Part shown: in pieces, positions 3,926 to 59,380 of the stretch
How the letters are laid out: the number at the start of each line of letters is the position of its first letter
How positions within the stretch are numbered: position 1 is the stretch's first letter
Assembly (NCBI GenBank): GCA_020055645.1
Contig: CM034549.1
Span: 21,039,930 to 21,103,929 of the forward strand
Direction: 5' to 3'
Source: Tomocerus qinae
Lineage: Eukaryota > Arthropoda > Collembola > Entomobryomorpha > Tomoceridae
Length of the DNA stretch: 64,000 bases
Notes under the pieces: generated by a model
Told to the model about the DNA's origin: nothing
The model's database searches: none
The model's input: only the letters and a program-made list of their open reading frames with translations
Position numbers and translations under genes: made by a program

Positions 3926-4706
3926 ACAATTTAATTTTCAACAATTCAAAATTTAATTTTCAGCAATTCAAAATTTAATTTTCAGCAATTCAAAATTTAA
4001 TTTTCAGCAATTCAAAATTTAATTTTCAGCAATTCAAAATTTAATTTTCAGCAATTCAAAATTTAATTTTCAGCAATTCAAAATTTAATTTTCAGCAATT
4101 CAAAATTTAATTTTCAGCAATTCAAAATTTAATTTTCAGCAATTCAAAATTTAATTTTCAGCAATTCAAAATTTAATTTTCAGCAATTCAAAATTTAATT
4201 TTCAGCAATTCAAAATTTAATTTTCAGCAATTCAAAATTTAATTTTCAGCAATTCAAAATTTAATTTTCAGCAATTCAAAATTTAATTTTCAGCAATTCA
4301 AAATTTAATTTTCAGCAATTCAAAATTTAATTTTCAGCAATTCAAAATTTAATTTTCAGCAATTCAAAATTTAATTTTCAGTAATTCAAAATTTAATTTT
4401 CAGCAATTCAAAATTTAATTTTCAGCAATTCAAAATCTAATTTTCAGCAATTCAAAATTTACTTTTCAGCAATTCAAAATTTAATTTTCAGTAATTCAAA
4501 ATTTAATTTTCAGCAATTCAAAATTTAATTTTCAGCAATTCAAAATCTAATTTTCAGCAATTCAAAATTTACTTTTCAGCAATTCAAAATTTAATTTTCA
4601 GCAATTCAAATTTTAATTTTCAGCAATTCAAAATTTAATTTTCAGCAATCCAAAATTTAATTTTCAGCAATTCAAAATTTAATTTTCAACAAATTAATTT
4701 TCAACA
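3926..4706. repeat. 22-bp tandem satellite array, about 35 copies
   Basis: A uniform head-to-tail array of a 22-bp unit whose core reads TTTAATTTTCAGCAATTC. Most units are identical. Variants fall mainly in the right third: cagTaattc at 4382 and 4492, aaaatCtaa near 4436 and 4546, and tttaCtttt near 4461 and 4571. Each variant recurs exactly 110 bp (five units) apart, so a five-unit block was duplicated within the array. Degenerate copies (cAAcaattc, caatCcaaa) mark both edges. Every plus-strand unit contains TAATTTTCAG, which resembles a 3' splice acceptor. The units run without unique spacers, so it is not CRISPR-like. Confidence 0.97.
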
Positions 4707-15872: not shown

Positions 15873-17499
15873 TCACCAGGGTCTCCAGCAACTCATATCT
15901 TCCTTCATATCACCAGCGACTTCTCTCTTAGGAGTGACAAGAGCCAGAGGTTGCTGAATGGAATGATGATGATGTTGGTGATGATGCGGTAAACTCGGGT
16001 GGTTATACCCATGATGACCAATTGGGTATGATGGACTAAGCGAACATCCTGAAGATGATGAGGAAGGCACTGTTAATTCCAGTGGGACTTCTGGAGATAG
16101 CATTGGTGGAGGATTGCATTGCATCTGCATAGCAGTAAGGGAAGGGGCTTGACGAGATCCAGAATTAAAGCCCGGAACCACAAATGCAATTTCACCGGAA
16201 GACAAACGAGAAGGCACCAAAGAAATTATCGGCGTGTTTGGTGGGACGTTAATTGTTGTCGTCACACTTCCATGGCTGTCGATCGACGTCAGTTGAGTTT
16301 GACTGTGCGTGTGGCCGTTCATGATGGGCGTTGTGATACAATCCGCCAGATGAGACAAAAGTCTCCCACTCGTTTGCTTGTCAATCCCATCGGATTTTGG
16401 AGAAGAAAGGAATCTGCCCACTTCTGCGGCACACTCCGCAAATCCCGCACGGAAACGAGTGGTACCCTCAACTCCGTTTGGAGCAGAATTACCGTGATGA
16501 CGATGGAGTGCTTTCAAATGGGAGACAGTCAACTCAAGGATGTCAGCTTTCTCCAGCTTTGAATGTCGGGCAGGATCTTTTCTCATCGCCTCCAGAAGAA
16601 TCCCTTTCAACTCATTGAGACAATTGTTGATTCGGGCTCGGCGGCGTTTCTCCATAATTGGCTTATTACTCTGTAACGAAAGAAAATAAAGTTCATGAGT
16701 CAATGTTACACTTCGTTTCCCTTGTCAGTTAACTTGGCGCCATAACAAAGTCTACCCTGCTTACTAAGAAGGATATTATCAAATCGTGGATGTTATACCC
16801 TAATCTAACCTAGCATAAGAAGCCTACTTATCGTATGAGATTCATGTATAAGTTACTACTGCACTAAATAAGGAGCAGTTAGGTACACACTTTCAACTTC
16901 CTTCACCCTTGGATTGCATAACTGACAAATGTTACAGGAAGCAGTAAACAAGACTTATGGCATGAAATGAGTTTAGTGCAACCAAAACAAAAAAACTTAT
17001 AGATATTTACGTGATAAGCAAGTGTAACAACTGTTATGCTCTTCTTCATTCATTCATAAAACTGAAAAATCTGGCCTGTGTAACTCCCTACACTAAACAC
17101 CTGACACTAAACGTATGATTTTTTCTCTTCCCATGAATGAATCTTAAAAATCACAAATGGACATTTTAGTTACACTTGGAAAAAATGGTGATTCTAGAAT
17201 ATTTGTAAGGAAAATTCATTGTAGATATTTGGGATCTTTTGAAAATGTGAATAAGGTTAATTTTTAAGATTTTCTATTCCATCATAAATCCGCGTAATAC
17301 TAGGCGGACTGTCAAAAACAATAAGCACGATCGTATAAAATCGTCTCTAATAGTAAATAGGTCATACCGTTGCTTTCCAAATTATTTGTTTCAAAAATTT
17401 TTAACTTACTCTTCGATTAGGATTCCGATTTGTAGTATCCGGTGTTTTAGTAATAGTTGACCCTCCATTAGGGTCAGGGGTTGATTCAGCGGAGCACAT
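15873..17499 (-). CDS. hairy-like bHLH-Orange transcriptional repressor (HES family)
   Basis: Two exons: 17499-17410 (30 codons) and 16670-15873, joined in phase 0 by a GTAAGT...TTACAG intron, giving 295 residues. Exon 1 encodes a short Thr/Pro/Asn-rich leader starting MCSAESTPD. Exon 2 opens with [20 protein letters not shown], the HES basic region with its diagnostic proline, followed by helix-loop-helix to about residue 90. An Orange domain follows (RFRAGFAECAAEVGRFL, with LLSHLADCI further on). A His-rich stretch (HHHQHHHH) lies near the C-terminus, and the protein ends exactly in WRPW, the Groucho-recruiting tetrapeptide. The family represses transcription from N- and E-box sites downstream of Notch or segmentation inputs. 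The intron position inside the basic region is shared with the plus-strand paralogue at 43.5 kb, but the second intron of that gene is absent here. I call it hairy-like because the Orange region lacks the deadpan signature; orthology is not proven. Confidence 0.93.
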
Positions 17500-27800: not shown

Positions 27801-30800
27801 TTTTACATACATTACTAAATCGAACCTCTCAAGACATTAACAGTTTCATTTTACTCTTTCCACGCATGGATGATGCATACTTAATGTCAACGTAAATACA
27901 CATAGCTAATGCAATCTACGCACGTGTGAAATCAACATGAAATATTATGCTCGAGGAATGCAAACGAACGAGAAGGCGACGCACGGAACTAAACTAAATC
28001 CTTTGAGCCCTTGACAAGAATTTTTTCCAGGACGGACGTCCTCCTTCCAATAAGAACCGCATTTACAATTCCCTTCCTGCACATTCTTATACACGCCTTC
28101 CAATTAACAGTTTTCTCTCTGCTTTTAAATATTCTCTCACAGCCATTCCCAACGTAATCCAATCCACTCCTATTCCCTGCTACAATTTAGACCAAACATA
28201 ACAATACTTTAGCTAAATGTTTCTTAAGTGCTTATTACATTTATTTCTCCTATGTGTCTAATCCACTCACACATTCCCAACAGTCATCTCTAAAATATTT
28301 CTAATCTCTCCCAATTCTCACACAATAAACATTGTAAAATCTTTCAACGGGATGGGTGAACATCATTGATATAAGCCTTTACATTCACAGCTACACTCCA
28401 AAATCCAATACACGATCACAAGGAATGCATTTAACACTTTTATGGGATTGTGTTATGTTCTGTAAAGACCTCTACTCTAACTAGATACATTCTTTCTTCA
28501 AGGTGTCCATACAATGTTACTGAAAATATTTACCCATCTGTAATTAACCGCCTAAGAATTGTGAAGATGGGAGTTTTCAATACAGCAATACGCAATTTGT
28601 GTGTTTGTCAATTGATACAATATACTCACATTCAAATAGTTCACATTTAAAACTAACAATAAACTTTGCAAAAATTATTGTTCCCAGTTTCAGGCATGAA
28701 CACCGAGAAAATTCTATCCACAGAAATAGAATTAACTATGTATTAACTTTTACAGGTTACTCATTCATAAATCTTCCATTAAGTTTACTGATTAAAAGAC
28801 ATGAACTGAATAGAGATGCTATAATAAGGGATGAAGATAGCTTATTAAATATTTATAATGTCAATACGGCTAATTATGTTGAAGACTTCCCTGGAATCTA
28901 CAAGTTATCATCAATATCAGTGATCTAATGTGTACCCTACAAGAAAACGATAAAATTTTAATGTATATTAAAATAAACATTGACATAGAGCGACAAAGCA
29001 CGATATCGTCAAGTTGTCCACATTCATCAAGACGGGAGCCAAGGCTAACTTTTAAATATTCTGTAAATACTACGTAGGTATAAAGATGTTTTAAGTCACG
29101 GTGCGGATCTCTTACTTTCAGATTATTTTGTGGTATTTGTTTTGGGCTGAGAAGACAAACATTCCTCCTGTTTGTTCACGACTTGACAAGTTTCACAGAT
29201 ATTTGTAAAAATGAGAACAGGTAGCCATAAAGATATGTACCTGGTGGAAATGAGAAAATAAACGTGTCTAGTATCCAAGTAGAAGTGGCTGTTATATAAA
29301 AATACAAGCTTGACAAAAGAGTGAGAATAAGCCTAATGATAAGAAGGAAGGTAGAGATGAAAGAGATACATTCAAAACCCTTTATTTCGTGTTATCCTGT
29401 AAATCTGTTCTCGCTGCAACTAACCAAAGGATAGAGGAATGGTGAAAGAGTTGTATTTTTGTCTTTGACATCGTCACATAACATAACACTACTGTCACGT
29501 TACCTCACCATTAAATTCTGCTTTGTCTCCCGCTGATTCGGGGTCATTCTATCGCTATGTGGCTCCCTTTGGCTAAATAAGTAAGGCGCTGCTTATCCCC
29601 CACTCACTAGACTCACTACAGTCAAAAGTATAATAAAACTTGGAAATATGGATGCTGAGAGGATCTTTCTACTGTATTCCGCATCAGTATAGTTATGCTT
29701 GACTTAGTGTAGAGATCTTCGGATGCTAAAGAGAAACTCTTAAGAATCCAATACCCCTTTAGAGATGAATGAAAGAAATCCTTTGATAGGGACAAGAAAA
29801 CTTGACAAGTCCAATAACATATCCTATGGATTTTCGTCAGTAGTCATAATTATAAGTATTTTGTGAGGCAGGAGAGCAACCTTGCCTCGTTTCCTTAACT
29901 GGAAGGGTTACACTGTCGTTATTACTCAGTGCACGTAATAATTATAATTCTTTTGTAAACTATATATGTATTTACACGCGTAGTGTAAGTGTGGGCAGCA
30001 TCTTCTTCAAAGTGGACTAGTAACTCATCTTTTGAACTTCCTAATGGACTTCCCACTGCAAGTCTAACTCAGGCGGGTCACCAAAACAAGTTTGACCTAT
30101 TTCTTGTTGAACCTGTCTTGTCCCATCCTCATCTCCGGAAGGGTGTTCTCTCTTTCTCTCCTGGACTCTCTTATACACAAAGCTACAAAAAAGATGTCAA
30201 ACACTTCCATATATGTATATAGTAATATATTTAGTATATAGGAAACCAAAAATTACAAATGAACCTTCCAGGATTCAAATTACAATCCGTGTACCTGCCT
30301 GCCAGTCGAATTTTACCTTTTCAGACTCGTTACTCAATATAAAATCCAACTTGACTCAACTCAACCCTTCTTTTCAGTTGAATACAATAGGGACCTTAAC
30401 AGGTACACTTTATTTCCACTCTCACTCAAAGGATTGCGTTTTGGGTATTGTTACGCGTTATGTTATGTTACGTCGGTCGGGTTAGTCATAGATGCACATG
30501 GACAACAAACGATGACGGTTCCTTAACGAATACACCTAGTAGTAACAACAAGAAGCAAGGAAGAATAATGAAGGTAAAAGAGTTGAAATTGTAATCTTTG
30601 AAATCTGTACTATTATACTTATTACGTCTATACACACTATAATCATCGTGATATTTATATTTTGTAAGTACGCTCATCAGGTGTGGGTTCCTTTCTAAAA
30701 GGATGAATAACCCACAAACTAAAGTATTATTGCATATACCGCAGTTACTTGTTAACCTGCTTGTTCTTTACTTTTCTTACTACCTGTTCCTATCCACTTA

Positions 30801-43465: not shown

Positions 43466-44976
43466 ATGAAAGTGGACTCAATGATGCAGCCCATGATGAC
43501 ATTCCACGATACGGAGGCAGACGACGATCTTGACGTGCAGATTGACAGCCACGGCTCGGGAGGTCATCATAACAAAGCAGAAATCAGAAAGGTAACTAAA
43601 GCAAACCCATCATTGGTTAAATATTTCAAACAAGTTGGGATGTCTTTGAAAAACTCGCTCAACCCAATAAATACTTCCCGGATTGCATAGAGTAACTTTT
43701 ATCTTAAGAAGGTTGCCTTCCAATGTGAAACTGTGGGATATTTTTTGTGTAACTCATCAATAGCTGACAACTAATAGATAGGTACCTACTTTTATCTGTG
43801 TGTCCGTAATTACATTAGTTCCTTCTCTTTGTTTAGAGTAACAAACCGATAATGGAAAAACGCAGGAGAGCCCGAATCAACAATTGTCTCAATGATTTGA
43901 AAGGTATCCTGCTGGAGGCTATGAGAAAAGATCCTGCTCGGCACTCTAAATTAGAAAAGGCCGACATTCTTGAATTGACTGTAAGACACCTTCAAAATGT
44001 CCAAAGAAACCAATTGGCCATAGCAATGGCAACTGACCCGACTGTTCTTCATCGTTTCAAAAATGGATTTTCCGAATGTGCAACTGAGGTAAGTATAAAC
44101 TCCTGCACTTTTTTCACAAACAATTCTCACCAAGAATCAATTCACCCCAATTGTCTGTTTAAGATGTCTACTCCCAGCCAGGCATTTTACTCCATGAATC
44201 TTATTTCTTGGATGATGTCATTCTCTTTAACTAATATGAGATTTGGAATACAATAGGTGAGTCGTTACATGGGAAGGTTAGACGGAGTAGATCCCGGTAT
44301 CCGTCAGAGACTAACAGGGCACTTAGGAGCTTGTGTCAATGGACTCCAGCAAGTTGGCCCTATGACCTTCGGAGCTCCACGCTATTCTCCGTTGGGACTG
44401 TCTTTCGCTCAGCCTCCAGCAGCGACGCCGAACACACTAGGCCTCCACCCCGCCCCTCCGTCTGCAGCTGGATTAATATCTCCACAGGCGACAATGCCGC
44501 CCATGGGAGATGTAAACAACAACCGATACAACAGTGGGCACACTCCACCTTCGGCTACTGTCACCAGTTCCACTTTTCACAGCAATCTCAACAGAATTGG
44601 TTCTGCCTTCTCATCAGTAGCCAAGAGACCACCAACACCCCCACCGTCACCTAGCTTGTCACCTCAAACAACTTCCTCTTTCCATGAAACAGACACTCCA
44701 AATATATCCACAGGCAGTGATAGCAGTATCAACATGATGAGTATCTGTGAAAGTATTGAAAAGGCTGGGCATCATCTCATTAATCCTGCCAATTTGTCAG
44801 GAAATAATACTCCTGGAACACCTTTAGACTTTTCCTTGAACAGAATCAAGAGAGAAGGCAGTCAAATAGAAAGACCTGTGCGAGTGGTGAAAGTAGAACC
44901 CATTTCCTCCATCATGTCTCAGGATACGAATAGGAACAATAGTAAAGAGAAAGACAACATGTGGAGACCTTGGTGA
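43466..44976 (+). CDS. dpn: deadpan-like bHLH-Orange transcriptional repressor
   Basis: Three exons (43466-43591, 43837-44088, 44257-44976), all joined in phase 0, give 365 residues. Exon 1 encodes an acidic, His-containing leader ([11 protein letters not shown]...). Exon 2 encodes the basic region [20 protein letters not shown] with the HES proline, the helix-loop-helix, and the start of the Orange domain ([13 protein letters not shown]). Exon 3 completes Orange ([19 protein letters not shown]), then a Pro/Ser/Thr-rich tail with [14 protein letters not shown], ending in MWRPW. The [11 protein letters not shown] block and the [15 protein letters not shown] linker resemble insect Deadpan more than Hairy. 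The family recruits Groucho to repress genes in neural progenitors. The start was chosen as the first ATG, preceded by GCCAAG. Intron 1 interrupts the same codon boundary as in the hairy-like paralogue. The family call is secure; orthology to dpn is likely. Confidence 0.94.
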
Positions 44977-46390: not shown

Positions 46391-48617
46391 ATGTTTAGAA
46401 TATTAATAGTAAGTGTGGCAGCAGGAATAATTGGAATAGCACTAAACTATTTCGTGGATATAAACAAAGAATCTGATGGCACATGTAAAGTTCGGTACAA
46501 ATTCCCCGTTAAACACATGGCCACAAAATCACCATATATTCATTCACAACATGAATTATGTAACCTTGCCGGAAACTGTGGTAGTCAAGACCTAATTGTA
46601 CCAGAAGGTAATTGGTAACCCCTTTTTTCCTAATTTTATATTATTTAGTTTCTGTAAATTGCAAAAACGAGTCATTATACATCTTCAGTTGAGAAAGTTT
46701 ATTTGTATATTGTACAAAGTCTAAACGGTATATTTAACTGATGAATTGTGTAATTCCTACTAGGATGTACTGCTGAGCAAATATGGATGGTAGTTCGACA
46801 TGGAGCAAGACATCCAAGTGCAGAAGTAATCACACGAATGCGAAATATCTTGGTTCCATTACGAGAAGAAATTCTAGGAAACCACAAAGCAGGAAAAGGT
46901 TATTAAATAAAATGAAATATTAACCATGTGTAATATTTTCTGTAACTTTTGCTTTTACTTTATTTTCAATTCAGTAACAATGTAATTTGTATAATGACGA
47001 ATATGTAAAAACGCTGTCAACTGTAACTAATTTTTATTTTGCATTTTAGGCCAGTTTTGCGAAGAAGAGATTTCAGCATTTAGGGATTGGGGATTATGCC
47101 CAGACTTAGTAGAATCAGCAGAAAAGGATTTAGTGACTCAAGGAGAAGCAGAACTATTTGGTATAGGCAAACGATTCCAGCAGAAATTTCCAGGGTTATT
47201 TCTAAAACAATTCCGAAATGAAACTTATAAGTTTAAATTCACACGAACTCAGCGTACAGAGGCAAGTGCTAGATCATTTGCAGAAGGAATTTTCGGAAAG
47301 GATGGTGCTCTTAATGTCTGGTACCCACCATCTTTGAAAGTTGACCCCGTTTTGCGGGTAAGTGTCAATTAAGGTTTTCACATATGTACCCCAAAGCATA
47401 CCTTCGTAAGGAAGTACAAGGAGGTATGGATGAGACAATTTCAATATTGAATTTTGCTTTTAGTTTTATAAAGGTTGTGCGAAATGGAAACGCGATGTGG
47501 ACAAAAATCCTGAGGCTTACAAGGAACGCGTTTTGTTCGAGGAATCCGAAATTTTCCAATCCACAATTAACAATACGCTAATAAGAAATGGCTTCGATAG
47601 GGGCCTTTCTGTATTGGAAATCGAAACAATTTATTTAGCATGCGCGTTTGAAACGTCCTGGAAGCCAACTCTTATTTCTCCGTGGTGTGCATTTTTTGAT
47701 GAGGATGCTTTCAAAGTATTAGAATATAGACAAGATCTGGAATATTACTGGATTGACGGATATGGGTTTGAGCTGACTTACAAACAAGCATGCCCTGCCA
47801 TTAGAGACATGATGGATCATTTTTCGTAAGGCAAAATAGTTGATTTATGGCACTTCACTTTTATATCTTAGCAAACAAGATGTATGTATGAGTTATGTTT
47901 AATGGAATGCTTCTATTTTATTTAGGAAAAAAATAATGGATCCGTCGAGTTCTCCATCAGTGATAACTTATTTCACGCATAGTGGAACAACTTTAAAGCT
48001 CCTAGCTCGTTTGGGCCTGTTCAATGATACTGAAGAATTGAGACACGATAATTACCATACGCATTTGGAAAGTCGCAAATGGAGAACAAGCGTGATAGAT
48101 AAATTCGGGACCAACATAGCTTTTGTACTATATAAGTAAGTTAAATTATAAAATGACTACTTTTTAATAACACTGAACTAAAAATAGTAGATTAATTTAT
48201 TCGTGCAAATTAAATGTACACCAAAATCAGCCAATTATACAAACAATGGAGAAAAAATTTTGAAAGCTTTTAATGGCATTTAAGGGTTAGTAATAGTTTT
48301 GCTCTACCACAAGTATAGCTACTAGGTTTATGGTTTATTATAGACTATAATTTTATGGCGATAACGCATAGAAAAATAACACGCGCTATTTATATATAAA
48401 TTAGAGTAAATATACTTAGCGCAGCTTAATGCGTTTCTACAATGAATATTATTATTTCAGATGTCAAAATTCCTACAAGATTGGAACAATTTTTCAAGAA
48501 CAGCCCACTGATCTACCTGTGTGTGGAGGAAATTGGCTATGTTCTTTCGAAGAGCTACGAAATGGCTTTGATCATATACTCAATGACTGTGATATGGATA
48601 AAATGTGTAAAATTTGA
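46391..48617 (+). CDS. MINPP1: multiple inositol polyphosphate phosphatase 1
   Basis: Six exons (46391-46607, 46764-46898, 47050-47357, 47464-47825, 47926-48135, 48461-48617) keep frame throughout and give 462 residues, close to the family's usual size. Residues 1-28 (MFRILIVSVAAGIIGIALNY...) form an N-terminal hydrophobic signal or anchor. Exon 2 carries the histidine acid phosphatase nucleophile motif RHGARHP. The exon 3/4 junction makes LRFYKGCAKW, typical of MINPP. Exon 5 carries YFTHSGTTLKLLARLGLF, where the vertebrate enzyme has the proton-donor motif HAE. Exon 6 holds the C-terminal Cys-containing segment (DLPVCGGNWLCSFEELRNGF). The enzyme removes phosphates from InsP6 and other inositol polyphosphates, and 2,3-bisphosphoglycerate, in the secretory pathway. 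No KDEL-like retention tail is present; the protein ends DKMCKI. An AATAAA at 49,066 may end the transcript. Confidence 0.93.
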
Positions 48618-49239: not shown

Positions 49240-51605
49240 TTAATGTTGGGACCATTTAATCGACTTCAAATCCACTCCTTCTTGGACCATTTCCCATAAC
49301 GGGCTGTTAAAACAAAAGTTTTATGAGGAAATGTTTCATTGAAAATAGATTGAAGCAAACGAAAATTTTACTTTTCAAACGCGTAAAATGAGTAATTAAT
49401 TTGCTAACCTCATATCACGAAGTCGAACGCAATGTTTTATGCATTTTTGCGCTGTGTAGTCTACCTCCTCCTCTGTAGTAAATCGCCCTATCCCAAATCT
49501 TATTGATGAGTGAGCTAAATCTTCATCAGCCCCAATCGCTCTCAAAACATAAGACGGCTCCAAAGAAGCTGATGTACACGCACTTCCGCTAGATAAAGCA
49601 ATGTCTTTAAGAGCCATCAGAAGACTTTCTCCTTCAATATAAGCGAATGACAAATTAACACATCCAGGATAGGTTTCCTTTTCGTCCCCATTTCTTATAA
49701 CATGAGTCATACTCTTCATTATTGTCCCAATAAATCTTTCGGACAATTTCTCAACCCTTTTCAAGTCATACTAAAAATACAATATTACATATTTTTGTCA
49801 TGATGTAATATACTTCAACAAATTAGCATTAAATAAAAGTATAATATTAATTATAAGACATCGGTTAGTTACTGTATACCTACCTCCATGTCTTGCAATG
49901 CTATATCACAGGCGGAACCAAACCCCACAATTATAGGAGTTGGCAAAGTTCCACTTCTAAGACCCCGCTCTTGTCCACCGCCACTAAAAATTGGTTCTAC
50001 CCGAACCCTAGGTCGCCGTCGAACATATAAAGCACCTACACCTTTAGGACCATAGATTTTATGTCCACTAATGGACATAAGATCAATATTCATAGCATTG
50101 ACATCCATTGGTACTTTACCAACAGCCTGGGCAGCATCGGTATGAAAGAATACTTTCTTCTCCCTGCAAATCCGCCCTAAGTTTCAAAAGAAATATGTAA
50201 TCGAGTTGTGTACATAATGAATATAAAATAAAAATAAATACATAATAAAATACATAATAATTTTCTAATAACATAATAATAGTTTCTTTCAAAAAGCTTA
50301 TTCTTTTCCGGATATCATAATGACACACATACTTACCTATTTCTGTAATTGGTTGTTTTACACCTATTTCATTATTTACTGCCATAATAGAAACGAGACT
50401 TGTTTGCGGTGTAATGCTTTCTTTAAAGTGTTCAATATCGATAATGCCATTTGTATGTACAGGAAGATACGTAACCTTAAACCCCTCAGCTTCCAGCGCG
50501 CGACATGAATCCAGTACACATTTATGTTCCTGTAATACAAGAATCAAGAAGATTAAAGATAAAAACCATTAAAAAGGTACCTAAAAATTCTGGAAACTCA
50601 TACTACTATCGACAAATTTAAGTTAATAGTACACTTACTGTTTGAGTAGTAATAACATGGTTCTTCTTGGATTTGTAAAACCGTGCAACACCTTTAACAG
50701 CGATATTATTAGACTCAGTTGCACCGGAGGTAAAAATTATTTCTTTCGGATCTGCGTTGATTAATTTTGCAACTCTCTACAAAAATCAAATTTTCATTTA
50801 GGCTCACTTTCATTTTCTTTAACTTACTATGTTAACAACATTTGAAGACAAAAAATTTTCTATTACCTCCCTAGCAGTTTCTACTGCTTTCTCACTTTCC
50901 CATCCATAAGCGTGGGTTCTTGAATGTGGATTTCCGTAAAACGATGTTAAATATGGAAGCATAGCATCCAAAACCCTGGGGTCCAATGGGGTTGTGGCCT
51001 GAGCATCTAAATATAAAGGTCTTCCTTCCACTCCATCAACGGTAATAGTGATTCCTTCTGTAAAGGTGTATGAATATGTATAGATTAATCAAAATATTAT
51101 CAGTATAAATCTATCAATCAAAATGAAACAATGAAACAATGAAAGGAATAGGGAATATCAGTTGACAACAAATCAGATGAGCATTACAACTTTCACAGCA
51201 AATCACCATTATAACTTTCACCAAGTGAAAGCTTCTAAAACTAGATTAAAAAGAAATGCCATTTGCAGAGATAGTTATATGGTAATTGATAGATCCGGTC
51301 ACTGTATTTCAAATGACTTTCTCCGTTGTCCGTAAAGTCGTTTTTATGCTTAAATGGAGAGCAGAACCAACTTTTCCTTACTTTATGTAAAACAGTGAAA
51401 GCATAAAATATTTATGATTTACATAATTTTTTAATAATAATGAAAATCTCGACTGCTTACCATAACTAGTTTGCTTTGGGACGCTTATTATAGGTTCAAG
51501 GGGAACTCTGGTACCGATTGTTGAATTTGACCGGATAGATACACTACACATTTTACTGCATAATGCAGTTAGTGAAAGCGTTTTTTCCAAAGGTTTTTTA
51601 AACAT
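49240..51605 (-). CDS. NFS1: mitochondrial cysteine desulfurase NFS1
   Basis: Seven exons on the minus strand: 51605-51461, 51057-50867, 50776-50639, 50529-50337, 50176-49884, 49770-49409 and 49303-49240. They join in frame to 461 residues, the size of the human enzyme. NFS1 is a PLP enzyme that takes sulfur from cysteine for Fe-S cluster assembly on ISCU, with ISD11, ACP and frataxin, in the mitochondrial matrix. Visible motifs, in order: [76 protein letters not shown] (PLP-binding lysine), [13 protein letters not shown], the mobile loop [13 protein letters not shown] with the persulfide cysteine, [13 protein letters not shown], and the C-terminus KSIKWSQH. Residues 1-33 form a basic presequence nearly identical to that of the divergent neighbour mS38. 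Exon 2 has a second in-frame donor 39 bases further on (50828) that would add 13 residues; the shorter form aligns with the family without a gap. Confidence 0.97.
51507..51605 (-). repeat. duplicated presequence segment, NFS1 copy
   Basis: Codons 1-33 of NFS1. It matches codons 1-33 of mS38 (52279-52377), in inverted orientation, at 82 of 99 bases and 30 of 33 residues. The shared peptide includes [17 protein letters not shown]. The differences are F2I, K3R and S21N; the other 14 base differences are synonymous. The tail of each exon (SVPKQTSYG and GFPNKSFNG) and the phase-1 donor also look related. Confidence 0.9.
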
Positions 51606-52278
51606 CGCTGATGAGGAAAAGTACGTCAGTGACAGGCGGGTGACACTTTCAACTTTAAGTTTCAGAAATGAAGCCAGTAAGTATGAACTAAAGTCGTAGG
51701 TGCAAAGAATTTTAAGTTCAAAATGATTACTAGTATTTTAATACTTTGATGAAATAATTAACCTGGACCGTCAGCTAAATAAAAATTAATTTTGGTTAGA
51801 TTGAAATTGATAAGCCCAGCATAGTATAGTATAACACGCACTAAGCACAGTGTCTCGCACAATAATCATTTTTTATTGCTTTTGCGATGTTATTCATTGT
51901 GAGATCCATATAGTATTCAAATAAGCCGCAGTAAAATAGCCGGGAAATTTGTTCTTTCACTAGAACTTCGGCAATTTGAATTGGCTAAAGATAAGCAAAA
52001 GCATCGATTTCGAATAGATTTCGAAGCAGATTTCATTTAAAGTCAAACGTTATAATATTTAATAATATTGGTGTGATTTTTGCATTGCAGTTTACTGCTC
52101 CACGAGAAGAGGGTTATTATTAACTGCAGCACATCCTCGTCCGGTTTATTTACTTTTTGTATTTAAAAACAAAATGTAGGTTAACTGCTTTGACAAAATA
52201 CCCATCAGATCAGTCAGATCGACTGCTAAAGTTTTCCCAGCATCGTATTTTTACTTTCTTTTATTTGGCACAACAAAA
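51606..52278. promoter_or_regulatory. presumed bidirectional promoter of NFS1 and mS38
   Basis: Only 673 bp separate the two start codons, so both promoters and 5' UTRs must lie here unless there are distant 5' exons. Both genes encode housekeeping mitochondrial proteins, which often share bidirectional promoters. TGACGTAC near 51,619-51,626 (bottom strand) resembles a CRE half-site. No TATA box is clearly placed. Outside the coding exons the two flanks do not resemble each other, so the duplication does not visibly extend into the promoter. Confidence 0.5.
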
Positions 52279-52377
52279 ATGATTAGAAAGCCGTTGGAGA
52301 AAACACTTTCACTAACTGCTTTATGCAGTAAGATGTGCAATGTGTCCATAAGGTCTAATTCTACAATCGGGACCAGA
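52279..52377 (+). repeat. duplicated presequence segment, mS38 copy
   Basis: Codons 1-33 of mS38, the inverted partner of 51507-51605. Codons 10-13 (CTTTCACTAACT) are identical at nucleotide level, whereas most other codons differ only at the third base. See the NFS1 copy for the comparison. Confidence 0.9.
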
Positions 52378-53251
52378 TCTGGATGTACTAGGACTGGAAT
52401 TAATTCTGCCTTTGGATTCCCAAATAAATCTTTTAATGGTAATGGTACAATTCTCATCAAAACTGCTGAATTACAGATGATTTTATTTATTTATTATGTT
52501 GGTCCCTGTTGCGGTATAATTTATAGCCCCTGTTGAAAGGAAGTAAAACATTCTCTGATTTCTTTGATTCTAAATAGGTTTCCCACAATTGGGGTCTAAG
52601 ATCTCGAACCAGGAACGACCTCAGGATATTTGGTCGTTGACCAGTGGAGCATCGCTTATTGGTTCAAGATCTCTGGATGTACACATACCGTCGTATGATC
52701 GCCCTGCTATAGGAATCGGGAACGGCAGAATATCTTCGATTTACAAGGATCCTTCTAAAACGAATGAAGTGGACATTGAAGATCCTCTGTTACCATTTAT
52801 GAACATTATTGATTGTCCTATACCCGAAAACAGCGGCATCGAAAAACAAGCTGCGAGACTTATTGTTATCCGGAGAATTAAAATGAACAAGCACAAATTA
52901 AGAAAACTTAGAAAGAAGATGAGGTTTAGATGGGAAAAGATAAAGACCAGGCGGAAGATCAGACGAGAAAAGGCTTTTCTGGATGAAAGATTGGCTAAAC
53001 TTAGAGAATTTGAAAAGTTTGATGCTAAACAATTTGTCCAAGATTGTATTCGGAGAGCTAAAGAAGTTCCGACACCACGAAGATGGCAAGATCCTTTAAT
53101 GCCGGCGTGGTATAAAGAAGAACAGATGCTAAAAGAGGAAAAGCTTAATCGCTATAGAAAGGCTGTTAACTTGTATTTAAATAAGCGAATTGATTTTAAA
53201 CCGCCTCCTTTTGGAAGATATGTGGGAGAGAAAAGGAAAGAAAGAAAATGA
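52279..53251 (+). CDS. AURKAIP1: mitochondrial small-subunit ribosomal protein mS38 (AURKAIP1 family)
   Basis: Two exons (52279-52438 and 52578-53251) joined in phase 1 give 277 residues. The family assignment rests on the basic block from about residue 144: RLIVIRRIKMNKHKLRKLRK, followed by KMRFRWEKIKTRRKIRREK, which matches the conserved C-terminal mS38/COX24 domain. In the mitoribosome this peptide threads into small-subunit rRNA. A long charged helix follows (AFLDERLAKLREFEKFDAKQ). The N-terminal 33 residues form a basic, Ser/Thr-rich mitochondrial presequence almost identical to that of NFS1 next door. The remainder between presequence and basic block is poorly conserved in the family. 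The exon 1 donor has a tandem alternative 6 bases downstream (52444), also in phase 1, which would add two residues. The protein is longer than the human one (about 200 residues). Confidence 0.88.
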
Positions 53252-54613
53252 AATTTTGTATAAAATAATATCAATAATAAGTCTACATAGATGAGTCATG
53301 TAACAATAATTGCATTTATATTGCTATTTAAGTTTGACAAATATTTGTTCAAATCTATGCAGTGGCTTAAGATGGGGTTCTTAGTCTAATCCCATTCGAT
53401 GCTGTAAGTTAAAGTTAATTGAACATCAACAGCATCCTTTCAATATGTATACAACAAGAAGTGATTATGCCAGCCTGTCTGAATTACTTTAAATGAATGA
53501 GTAAATATGTAGACATGTCAATTTGAGATCAATTATAAGTAAGCCTGTCTCATTTTTGTTGTGTTAGTTTGGGCTTTTCTCATTGGCCATCTGCCTGCAT
53601 CCATCCTAACCCCACAATACATGAACTTGTCAGTCCTGATTATTGCAATTGTAGAAAGAAAATTGCAATCGGGTATGCATAATATCCTAACGCATAATAT
53701 TTTATTTTAATATATTTAGTAGTCAATCAAATTGAGAACTGCGTATTTTTGCCTTCAAGGTAACTATAATAGTTAGGCAATTGGGTTATACTTTAGTGTA
53801 ACAATATGCCATTGACAAAAGGCAATTGGTTTACTGCATTCGCATGACTTGCTCTTTTGCCCAGCTATCGATTGGTTGGAAATTTCCTATTTATTTTTAA
53901 GATATCAGACTACAGTTGTTCAGATTCACACGCTTTCAGGGAGAAATTGTTCTGTTGTCTGGTATTTCCCTCTTCTACTCGCAATTCATTTCTCTTCTCT
54001 CCAAACAACCACAACTTTGCTTTGATGCATCCGAAACTTTCATATGCCAAACCTACTATTATCAATAAACTACGTGCTACATAATTTTGCTTTTGCTTGT
54101 TCGCGTTTGTGGCACGTAGAGATGTTCTTTAATATCCTTCTTTGATGACTATTCTGTTCCATATTTTCACAATGGTCTCGGAGAATTCTGTGAATCGATT
54201 TTCATGCTTGCTCCTACTAAGTTATAAAATCTATGTTACCTGATGTCGGCGGAGCCGTAAGCGAGCCGTAGTGTATCTCTTTTTCAATTTCACATTGCAC
54301 CCAAACGATCCATCTACCTTCTAATATTTATAGAAATGTCTACGTGTAAGAGTAAATAAAATAACGCCGTGTACCCTTGCACGTCTTTACACCACAAGTC
54401 CTATTTATTTTTATATTAGTCAAAACCATTTCCAGTTTATTTTCATTATTTTCATGCATAATATATCAACTTTAATATAGTATCTGTAAGTACATGTTAG
54501 TAATGCATATTAAGTACGATCTGTAATTATGTCCTAAACTAAGATTATTATATCTGCTCATTTCGTTTCGTTACCTATGCCTGAATATATAGTAATACAA
54601 TATTATAAAATAT
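53252..54613. other. convergent intergenic region, mS38 and TRPA 3' ends
   Basis: No exon or repeat recognised. The open frame at 53,857-54,084 has no features. Several TTTATT (bottom-strand AATAAA) occurrences near 54,410-54,440 could end the TRPA transcript. Confidence 0.5.
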
Positions 54614-57600
54614 TTATCCGAAGGCTTTCTTTACAGGTTTCTTTCCTTCAGCAGCCACCGTAATAGCTTCCTGGATGGCAATATCTTTCACTAGTTGCTT
54701 CAATTCCTCAGAATATCCGTCAGTTTTCATGTTTTCAATGGTTCTCGTAACTCTATTTGAATGCAATAACATAATACTTTACAATTCTACATAATACTCC
54801 TTGCATGAATACATATTATTATACATATAATCAGCCTATAGGAATTTGAATATGCCTAAGAAATCATAGTGTTATATATCATACCCTCCTTTAAAATTCA
54901 AGTGATTCCATTGAGTCATGCGTAGGCTTAAAAAGGCAAGGGCTGGTTTGCCACTTAGCCACACAACTAGAGAATCAACAAAACTTATTGATTGTAGCTG
55001 CATCACTGCCGTCTTGTATTCCGCATCTCTGAACAAATCCTGTATGTCATGTAACAAAACAAATAACATTCTATACGCATTACTACTATGCGTACTGTCC
55101 ATAAGACGTATATCTATACTTCCGTTAAGTTGCGTATGTATTAAATTAGCCCAAAAACTGAACAGTTTCTCTTGCCTGGAAATCTTTGACAGCAACTGAA
55201 GTTAATACGTTGGCCAAAACCAAGCCAAATCCGAATACTGCAATAACAATGATAAATTGGCCGACAATAGCGTTTTTGGTGAGGTCTGGGCCATCATCAC
55301 CGTAGAAAGTTTCCTTGTATTCTACTTCTCCTGTCATCAGCATGAAATTTTTAATGATGCCAAAGGGTAGGTACAAGAATTGGCTGTCCTGTTCAAAGGA
55401 TGAATAAATTGGTCATTAAATTAGTCACGTAGAAATAAAAGAAATAAAATGAGTAGTTTGATTTGATATTGCTACTGCATACTAGTTAAATACTATGCAA
55501 ATGGAAGAATGATTATAAACCAACCTTGGCTACATATCGATTTAAAGCGGGGACGAATGCCACCAAAATGGGGAAACCGATACAGAGAAGAAATATTGCA
55601 TAATTTTTTACGGTTTCAACAAGTATTGATAAGAGTAGAGCTAGTCTTGGAATATTCGCCAAGTCATTTAGTAGCATCAACCACACGAAAGTAAACATTA
55701 CCTACAACATCAAAAACATTTTAAGAGATTTAATTCTACTACCATAGTCCTTTTAATATGGCACACTCGAACATTTCCGTTTACTGTTTACTAATGGTAG
55801 GTATGCGATATTAATCTTTTTCAATTACCACTCCGATATGGTACTGCCAAGCTGGAATGTTGATTGGGTCCATATATGCTGGTAAAATATTTACCAGCAC
55901 TACAAAGTGCCTAATCCATTGTAGGATCGACAAAGGGTGATTCAATAAGTACGTTTTCAAGCCGCAATTGGCTACGATGAATTTTACTACTTCTTGGGCC
56001 ACAAACAATGGAGTATAAAGAAGCAACAAAGTAGCCAATGTTCTGGCCCAAGCTGTATGGAAGGTACAACTTTCTTCTTCTGAACAAAGATAAAAATGAA
56101 AGAATTAGTTTACCAATTGTGTTCCTGAAAGTGATTGATGTCAAGGAGGTTGGTGATGTAAAAATGCATTAACTTACCACTTAACCTCTTCTTGAAGCCT
56201 AATGAACGAAAAATTCTCAAGTCTGTAAATCCAGTCTGGTCGGTTGTGGTATCGGTGGAATTGCTTGGGCAATTCGGAGGATACAATTCATAGCAAAGAA
56301 TTGAATATAGCAATAGCCATACAACCTGAAATTTAGGGAGCAAAATTAGTGCAACTACTGAAGATGCGCAGATAAATATAAATAATGAAAATCATTCAAG
56401 AATATTATTGAAATTTTACGTATGACATGATGTATAAGAAAGTAAGGGGTTGCAATATTTTCCATTTTTCGATGAGGAAAATGCTGACAACCGGATGAGA
56501 GAGTATTATTCTCTGCTGCCTGACTGGGGCATCGAAAATTCCTCGAATCAGTTTGGATTCATTCCGGATTTCATTTAGGTCAAATCCAGTGACAGGTCTA
56601 CATAGAAATTATGTGAGTTATTGCAATGGTTCGACATAGAAAGACGACAGCGATTGTTAAAAGCTAAATGGTGTAACATACCCAAAATCGATCTTGACTT
56701 TTTCTAGATCATCTTCAGAAGTCGACGGAAGATAAGAAATGCACTTGTCCAACATAGGCACGGCTGCCTCTGGAGTTTTTTTGTAGATTTCTGCCAACAA
56801 CTCCGTTTTTTTAGCTCTGGAAATAAGTATTAGTGTATCATAATATTTGTACACGGTTTCTGTGTTTTTTATGGGTCTAATGTGATTGTCATCATAAATT
56901 ACTCTGTATATGGCAATAATGAAATGAAACTGTTCTCATTTAGTGTAGGGATCAAAAGAATAACTAACAATTGGTGTATCTTCCAGTAAAAGTGAGACTA
57001 TAGGTAATAGCTTGTGTTGGTGGGTAGGGTAAAAGTTCTTTTTGTAAAGTTTTGTACTTACATCGCCTCCTTATGCCCATACTCTTTTATTAGGAGCCGA
57101 GCAACCTTTGTCGTTCGATTTTTTACGGCCACCTTAAGTGGAGACTCCATTTTAAAATTTGGATTTTCATTTAAAATGAGTTTTCTTCTCTCAACTTCAT
57201 CATTGCGAAGCTGGTAAGATTCTCTGAACAGAGTCTCGACACAAAGAAGAGGATTTGCATATTTCCCTAAAATGACATTAAGGAATATACATTTACATAC
57301 AGATTGGGCAACACATTCATGTAAATACAAGCAGCAGGGAGAGATAAGCATGAGATATACGTATCTATCTCGGGGTGTTGGTGGACGATGCACAAGCACA
57401 GTAAAAAGTGTATTACCAGAAACTTGAGCCAGAAGATGAAGGCAAGTCTCTCCCTTATTGTTCAGCTGAGAAACTTTAGTTTTTGGGCTTGAGACCAAAG
57501 CTTTGAATATATCTACGTAACAATACTTTGCTGCCACATGAAGCGCTGTGTTCCCGTCTTTTCCTTCTATATTCACAGCCTCTGCAGGGAGAATGTCCAA

Positions 57601-59380
57601 CAAGAACTCGACACATTTAACTGCGTCTGGACCATCTCCTAAATTAGTACATAGATGAAAGTTCTAAGTATGCACTTGTATTTATGAATACAAAGGACAG
57701 AAATGAGAATACATATTGTATGCAAATCAAAATTCAAATGAATTGTATACAGCCTTTTTACCTTTCTGGACAGCCAACCATAACGAAGGGACGTCCGCCA
57801 GTAAAGATTTGATTGCCGAGTTATTTTCATCATTAAACTTATCCCACAGAAATTGAAACATATTCAAAGCAGAATGCTTCAACATTGTCTCAACAATGTT
57901 CTCGCCTGCATCAGATCTGCTTTTGATAAGATTACTGTTTTTTGCGAGGAGAATTTCTGCTATCTTGATAGCTTCTGGAGTATTGCCTATTAAATAGATT
58001 AAAAATCTCCATAGAATGTGCTCTACAGACTGTTACTTACATATATTATGTACAATATATACCATCTTTCCTATTATACTATACTAGGCTGTCACAATTT
58101 CAAAGCATTAATTCCATAAAAAGAACAATTGCATTTAATTCCTTAATTTCCATACCAAAAAAGACTTTTCCATCATTCTTAATTTTGTTTAGTACTCGAA
58201 AAGATAGGTTTTCTGTTTTCAAGTAGATTGTGTAGTTTTTCATGCTGTTTATATAATGATAGTTAACATTTCATAATAGTGAACACAAAATGTGATTTGA
58301 TATCTGTAACAGAATATTCTTGAATCCGATAAAAACAGCAATTTTTGCATTTTAATTTCATAATTTGCGTACCCAAAAAGATGTAGGATTCTGAATTTTA
58401 TTCTACTAGATATGCACTCAGATACCCGAAGTTCCTCAACTCATAAGCATTAGGTTTAACAGGAAGTTGGAAGTTTATAAATGGAGTTCTTACACTTGAG
58501 GATGAGTTGAAATGGATTTTCTCCATTTTCATTCCTTGCATTTGTATCTGCTCCACGTTCAACGAGGAGCCTAACGAGTTCAGACTGCTGACTGAGATAA
58601 CAAGCGTTGTGTAATGCCGTCCATCCCTTCTTGTTCTGTGAGTTTATGCCAAAAGCTTTCCAGTTATCGAGGATAAACTTGGCTGCTTCCAAGCAGTTAG
58701 AATACCCTGTTGATATAAGCATGTTTAATGTTAATATTAGATGATTCACAAGAATAACACTATTTATGATCTACTCACACAGATCCAGACACAAAGTATC
58801 ATTCTGTACATATTCAATTACTTTCTATTCACTTTAGGTACATATGTAACATTGAATTAAATACTAGGGGCAGTAAACACGGATGTGATAGAAAGAGAGT
58901 GTAAAATTTACTTGAACAAACAAATCATTTGCACTGCCAGATCCCAGAACACAGTGCTCTAGTGTTTATAGTGTTAAATATATAACCAATCGGAAGTGAT
59001 AGAAGCACTGCTCTTCCTTAAATGTCTCTACTCCAGGAATTTAATCAATACTGCCTTCATTTGAATTTTAAATGAGCAAAGTATTCCCCTATAGGGATCT
59101 ACCAACATATAAAACTGAAGTATAAAATTGTCATCTTACCCCCTTCTGCAATCCTATGGAGCAAAGTGTCCTTAGACGGTTCATAAACCTTCCAGGCACT
59201 TCCCGGTTCTGCACTGATGAAAGCTGTTAGTTCGGGGATGTTGCCTCTACGTGCAGAGTCGAGAATTTGCACGTCTTCGGGTAAATCCTTGTCCTTATCA
59301 AACCCACTGCTATCGCCCATTCCGTTTAGTGGAACAATTTCGTCAGGCATGATTTCTATAATATTCGGATACAAACTCAT
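54614..59380 (-). CDS. TRPA-family cation channel, painless/pyrexia-like
   Basis: Thirteen minus-strand exons: 59380-59140, 58706-58494, 57986-57762, 57638-57417, 57266-57062, 56816-56682, 56597-56420, 56325-56178, 56079-55829, 55701-55525, 55388-55176, 55039-54885 and 54752-54614. All phases agree; the product is 833 residues. N-terminal ankyrin repeats are visible (GWTALHNACYLSQQSELVRL; GNTALHVAAKYCYVDIFKAL; SPLKVAVKNRTTKVARLLI). A pre-S1 segment and S1 follow (HPVVSIFLIEKWKILQPLTF), then further membrane helices, for example LANIPRLALLLSILVETVK and NYAIFLLCIGFPILVAFV. The pore region is FGIIKNFMLMTGEVEY, and the last helix contains GQFIIVIAVFGFGLVLANVL. Layout and pore motif fit insect painless/pyrexia TRPA channels, used in noxious heat or chemical sensing. 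The intron after 55176 starts with GC rather than GT. The start is the first ATG of the open exon; extra 5' exons are possible. Confidence 0.9.

Follow-up and report, generated by a model that had tools for sequence, protein, structure and literature searches.

Mitochondrial presequences can be transferred between genes by duplication, as is known notably from plants (PMC2631504, PMC2031878). According to the first of these sources, the presequences of rice rps11-1, Arabidopsis sdh3, and carrot rps10 were seemingly copied from atp2, hsp70, and hsp22. The same source describes a second route in maize and rice, where one presequence is used by different proteins via alternative splicing, the rice proteins being RPS14 and SDHB (a reference cited in PMC2631504). 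Identical mitochondrial targeting sequences are also reported for the Arabidopsis pollen killer KPOK3A and its antidote APOK3 (PMC11761171), and, in an animal, the unrelated Clytia proteins GFP2 and clytin2 are described as co-targeted to mitochondria (PMC4043110).

Here we analyze a window of 64,000 nucleotides from the springtail Tomocerus qinae, in which the genes for NFS1 and for the mitoribosomal protein mS38 begin with nearly the same peptide. As a desulfurase, NFS1 initiates Fe-S cluster assembly, and we take both NFS1 and mS38 to be old, long-nuclear housekeeping genes. The locus resembles the plant duplications in that a nuclear gene would have taken its presequence from an unrelated gene; the plant genes, as described, had moved from the mitochondrial genome and needed a signal, whereas NFS1 and mS38 are divergent neighbours whose copies are near-identical in protein at a synonymous divergence (dS) of ~1. 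It resembles the splicing case in that two unrelated mitochondrial proteins have one presequence, but there a single presequence is reported to be shared by splicing, whereas here two physical copies lie on opposite strands. As with KPOK3A and APOK3, genes of one locus carry the same mitochondrial targeting sequence; that pair, however, is described as a killer and its antidote, the latter gene having arisen within a single species, in contrast to housekeeping genes with an old divergence. Like GFP2 and clytin2, NFS1 and mS38 are an animal pair of unrelated proteins sent to one compartment, although the Clytia signals are reported as gained in parallel rather than copied, the one of clytin2 without a separate exon. 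What is unusual in NFS1/mS38 is the inverted layout of divergent neighbours together with tight protein conservation in both genes at high silent divergence.

Divergent NFS1 and mS38 genes

The features of the locus are as follows.

51507..51605, minus strand: putative presequence copy A, NFS1 codons 1-33; 30/33 residues shared with the mS38 copy
52279..52377, plus strand: putative presequence copy B, mS38 codons 1-33; 30/33 residues shared with the NFS1 copy
51461..51605, minus strand: coding part of NFS1 exon 1, 145 nt, with a phase-1 GTAAGC donor; sharing beyond codon 33 is not clear
52279..52438, plus strand: coding part of mS38 exon 1, 160 nt, with a phase-1 GTAATG donor; sharing beyond codon 33 is not clear
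49240..51605, minus strand: NFS1 (mitochondrial cysteine desulfurase), 461 aa, 7 coding exons, from splice reading, Pfam, and a solved structure
51605-51461, 51057-50867, 50776-50639, 50529-50337, 50176-49884, 49770-49409, 49303-49240, minus strand: NFS1 coding exons
52279-52438, 52578-53251, plus strand: mS38 (AURKAIP1/Cox24), 277 aa, 2 coding exons, from splice reading, Pfam, and phmmer
51606..52278, no strand: inter-ATG region, 673 nt, presumed to hold the 5' UTRs and (a putative role) the promoters of both genes

NFS1 (ATG at 51605, minus strand) and mS38 (ATG at 52279, plus strand) are intact divergent neighbours, and the 673 nt between their start codons agree with the inverted layout, about 0.7 kb apart, given in the initial annotation. 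With exon borders placed by hand, both genes have GT/AG introns and yield intact reading frames after splicing. NFS1 matches Pfam Aminotran_5 (E 6.3e-94) and the solved mitochondrial cysteine desulfurase 5wkp_A (E 1.1e-223); this last alignment begins at residue 60, and those with the best solved relatives start at residue 60 or 61. In mS38, Pfam COX24_C scores 31.8 bits (cutoff 23), with the Cox24 domain at residues 146-176, and phmmer aligns residues 144-189 with the solved mS38 chain 3j9m_A3, a weak match (E 0.03) in the correct place. Because this match is weak and exon 2 alone has no match at E up to 0.01, the assignment to mS38 depends chiefly on the Pfam domain. Exon 1 of either gene precedes the conserved part of the protein, and the conserved parts themselves (Aminotran_5 and COX24_C) bear out the premise that the two proteins are unrelated.

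Elsewhere in the window, two Hes-type genes terminate in WRPW: one at 15873-16724 (minus strand) is a single reading frame with HLH and Hairy_orange domains, and one at 43837-44976 (plus strand) is split over frames 43837-44256 and 44257-44976, with the Orange domain divided between them. Two exon-like frames at 47031-47372 and 47464-47829 (plus strand) belong to a gene of the histidine phosphatase superfamily, branch 2, which we take to be perhaps a multiple inositol polyphosphate phosphatase. Ankyrin repeats occur in two frames on the minus strand (57058-57663 and 58456-58770), and a tandem repeat at 3928-4692 has a 22-base unit in 34.8 copies with 97% matches.

Divergence of the first 33 codons

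Direct pairwise comparison of codons 1-33 reproduced the counts first reported for this pair: 30 of 33 residues are the same, and the 99 bases differ at 17 positions, 14 of them synonymous. The three differing residues (NFS1/mS38) are F/I at residue 2, K/R at residue 3, and S/N at residue 21; no codon carries more than one base difference, and 13 of the 17 fall at third positions. A dN/dS estimate on the 33 codons, as the initial annotation had proposed, gave dN 0.040-0.059 and dS 0.83-1.30 (NG86, LWL85, and YN00), the dS having a wide error since it is based on 33 codons. Third-position G+C over these few codons is 0.45 in the mS38 copy (52279-52377) and 0.27 in the NFS1 copy (51507-51605); it is 0.34 and 0.31 in the remainder of mS38 and NFS1, respectively, and the G+C content of the window is 35%.

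When each 33-residue peptide was compared with the window by tblastn, the other copy was retrieved at E 1.3e-16 and 3.7e-17, the next-best match had E 0.12, and the window showed no third copy. Two low-scoring matches of the NFS1 peptide, at 28040-28126 (E 0.12) and 53328-53363 (E 0.15), look like chance. The longest of the four inverted repeats reported in 51300-52700 is the exon-1 pair; its arms (51507-51620 and 52264-52377, 79% over 114 nt) extend over the 33 codons and over 15 bases of weak similarity before the ATG. Judged by this comparison, codons 1-33 of NFS1 and mS38 are homologous. That the pair is an artefact of assembly or chance has a negligible probability: an E of ~1e-16 compares with 0.12 for the runner-up, misassembly of one copy would not produce 17 differences in a coding pattern, and nothing was found in support of an artefact.

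The differences are far from randomly placed with respect to the protein. When 17 changes were placed at random on the NFS1 copy, 30 residues were kept in 0 of 100000 trials (mean 21.9, best 29), and the 3 replacement differences observed compare with ~19 expected for a dN/dS of 0.3 at dS 1.05. The initial reading of an old event under strong protein-level constraint is supported by these 3 replacements at a dS of ~1.

Recurrent gene conversion between the inverted repeats would be another way of keeping the copies alike by concerted evolution, without constraint on each of them. Close inverted repeats are plausible partners for conversion, and codons 10-17, with one change in eight, could be a small tract; yet unchanged codons do not cluster significantly (P 0.27), and the copies share no identical run longer than 14 nt. 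Moreover, conversion would erase silent differences too, and dS is ~1. Conversion thus fails to explain the pattern, because it would reset the silent sites, and we consider it improbable; the suggestion of a conversion limited by selection found no support in the same dS and run length.

Constraint on nucleic acid rather than protein, through an RNA or DNA element or a conserved antisense reading frame, is less probable by some way. Neither copy has a stop in antisense frame 2, and 26 of 32 residues in that frame are alike, but sense frame 1 is better kept (30/33) and 13/17 changes are at third positions. The antisense frame is open and alike because it shares third positions with the sense frame and a sense peptide without Tyr, His, or Gln permits no stops, so we rejected it as a by-product of the shared wobble positions. 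Scans of the window with Rfam (gathering threshold) and for tRNAs returned nothing.

Limits of the similarity

The recognisable similarity is bounded by the ATG and codon 33. Identity falls to 53% across the 15 bases before the ATG, to 40% across 30, and to 32% across 100; local alignments were no better than shuffles for the 300-base upstream flanks (P 0.57) or for the first 140 intron bases of the two genes (P 0.28), in agreement with the flanking DNA having been called dissimilar. An 18-base inverted pair (52260-52277/52411-52428, 78%), whose arms lie immediately before the mS38 ATG and within mS38 exon 1, could be chance.

The exon-1 tails past codon 33 (46 and 61 bases) align only marginally. 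Their ends, SVPKQTSYG and GFPNKSFNG, had been called related, as had the donors; the former relation is only borderline (shuffle P 0.045 for DNA and 0.07 for protein), and the G that closes the NFS1 version does not occur in the protein, where splicing turns the split codon G|AA into E. A phase-1 donor is confirmed in both genes, although agreement in phase alone has a chance of about 1 in 3. These shared donors and borderline tails are what the locus offers on copying of the whole exon. Unselected copied DNA would be expected to keep only about 38-50% identity at the observed dS, before indels; shuffle-level similarity in the flanks is therefore as expected for neutral DNA at this divergence, and the bare flanks are silent on the extent of the original copy. 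They do point to codons 1-33 as the part that is constrained in each of the two genes.

The shared peptide as a proposed import signal

A mitochondrial import function of the shared stretch is read mostly from the two proteins that carry it. Both copies have a net charge of +5. Some observations speak against a textbook signal: the helical moment is unremarkable, not above that of shuffled versions (P 0.53 and 0.50), and an AlphaFold2 model has low confidence (mean pLDDT 64, helix 12-26). The acidic residue E7 is kept, in a class of peptides that is described as depleted of acidic residues in yeast (PMC6634968). The peptide also has arginines at R25 and R33 and a conserved C16-x3-C20 pair. Under the rule that the mitochondrial processing peptidase (MPP) cleaves with an arginine at -2 or -3 of the site (PMC8835746), R25 or R33 could be the -2 residue of a putative MPP site; if R33 is at -2, the conserved block would be approximately the whole presequence. 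A search of solved structures with an exon-1 profile yielded no match (E up to 10), and Pfam gave none for the NFS1 33-residue peptide (E up to 0.1).

How much of the sequence such a signal has to keep bears on the meaning of the constraint. The initial annotation took presequences to diverge fast because only charge and amphipathicity matter. This fits the report that, among disordered regions that have diverged strongly, yeast N-terminal targeting signals form a cluster, and that one such signal can replace another (PMC6634968), but it is not universal, as replacement was reported not to be rapid in the presequences of primate COX subunits (Schmidt et al. 2002). We simulated divergence with a toy model that retained net charge, acidic content, hydrophobicity, helical moment, and one arginine site; the model is crude and its thresholds are our own choice. 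At a divergence (d) of 1.05, it kept a mean of 9.5 identical residues (best 17) and reached 30 in 0 of 1500 runs; in 600 runs each, 30 was never reached at d 0.3 (best 27), 0.5 (best 24), or 0.83 (best 20). Because a model with generic features never reached 30/33, generic import needs alone seem insufficient, and we infer a constraint beyond charge and amphipathicity.

It is quite possible, if somewhat short of an even chance, that the same old duplication was followed by ordinary constraint, the presequence being slow for the usual import reasons and without a special interface. The slow change reported for some presequences (Schmidt et al. 2002) agrees with this, and the crude toy model may understate import needs; against it, the generic features in the model never held 30/33 at the observed divergence. 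This alternative differs from our preferred reading, set out below, only in the last step, and the odds of the two overlap. Because simulation, conversion, and antisense readings fail to explain the pattern, it is apparently the residues as such that matter in both genes. Our guess is that the additional constraint is a specific peptide interface, perhaps with a receptor for import or with a processing step.

Origin of the shared presequence

Our preferred reading, to which we give a probability of about 0.72, is that the presequence exon of one gene is an old inverted local copy of that of its neighbour, and that both have since been held by purifying selection beyond generic import needs. 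Either NFS1 or mS38 would have gained its present presequence exon via inverted local copying of the first coding exon of the other. Both copies would now serve as N-terminal mitochondrial import signals on unrelated proteins, the cargoes being an Fe-S desulfurase and a small-subunit mitoribosome protein, and purifying selection on residues, not DNA, would then have held codons 1-33 in both. The homology, the layout, the intact frames, and the frame-specific constraint are direct observations on the locus. The copying is probably old, because silent sites differ by ~1 substitution per site, and the sequence statistics favour the inverted duplication of a presequence-coding stretch that had been proposed.

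A joint control of Fe-S cluster synthesis and mitochondrial translation, also proposed initially, is speculation. In its specific form, the peptide would be a jointly conserved key for import or processing, giving one import control point for Fe-S synthesis and mitoribosome assembly, with C16-x3-C20 maybe sensitive to redox state or metal; we regard this as a long shot. In yeast, mS38 is reported to be preferentially required for the synthesis of cytochrome oxidase subunits (PMC6582356), a role that does not alone tie mS38 to NFS1.

By title and start of the abstract, none of the open-licence PMC matches listed describes a presequence shared by NFS1 and mS38, an absence that is weak evidence; the one listed paper in which AURKAIP1 and NFS1 occur together concerns breast cancer (PMC11744720). 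Among prokaryotic contigs, 18 pattern matches to mS38 included no relatives, and viral contigs had no match; for the exon-1 alignment, neither the 8 pattern matches in viral contigs nor the 62 in prokaryotic contigs included a relative. Being viral and prokaryotic, these sets have no bearing on how widespread the arrangement is in animals.

If the preferred reading is true, the locus would apparently be an animal example of presequence exchange between neighbours, the examples in the literature coming mainly from plants. If the arrangement is clade-wide, the pair would test naturally which parts of a presequence are indispensable, the same peptide having long evolved in parallel on two unrelated cargoes: residues fixed in both genes, as opposed to those free in each, would separate cargo-independent from cargo-specific import needs.
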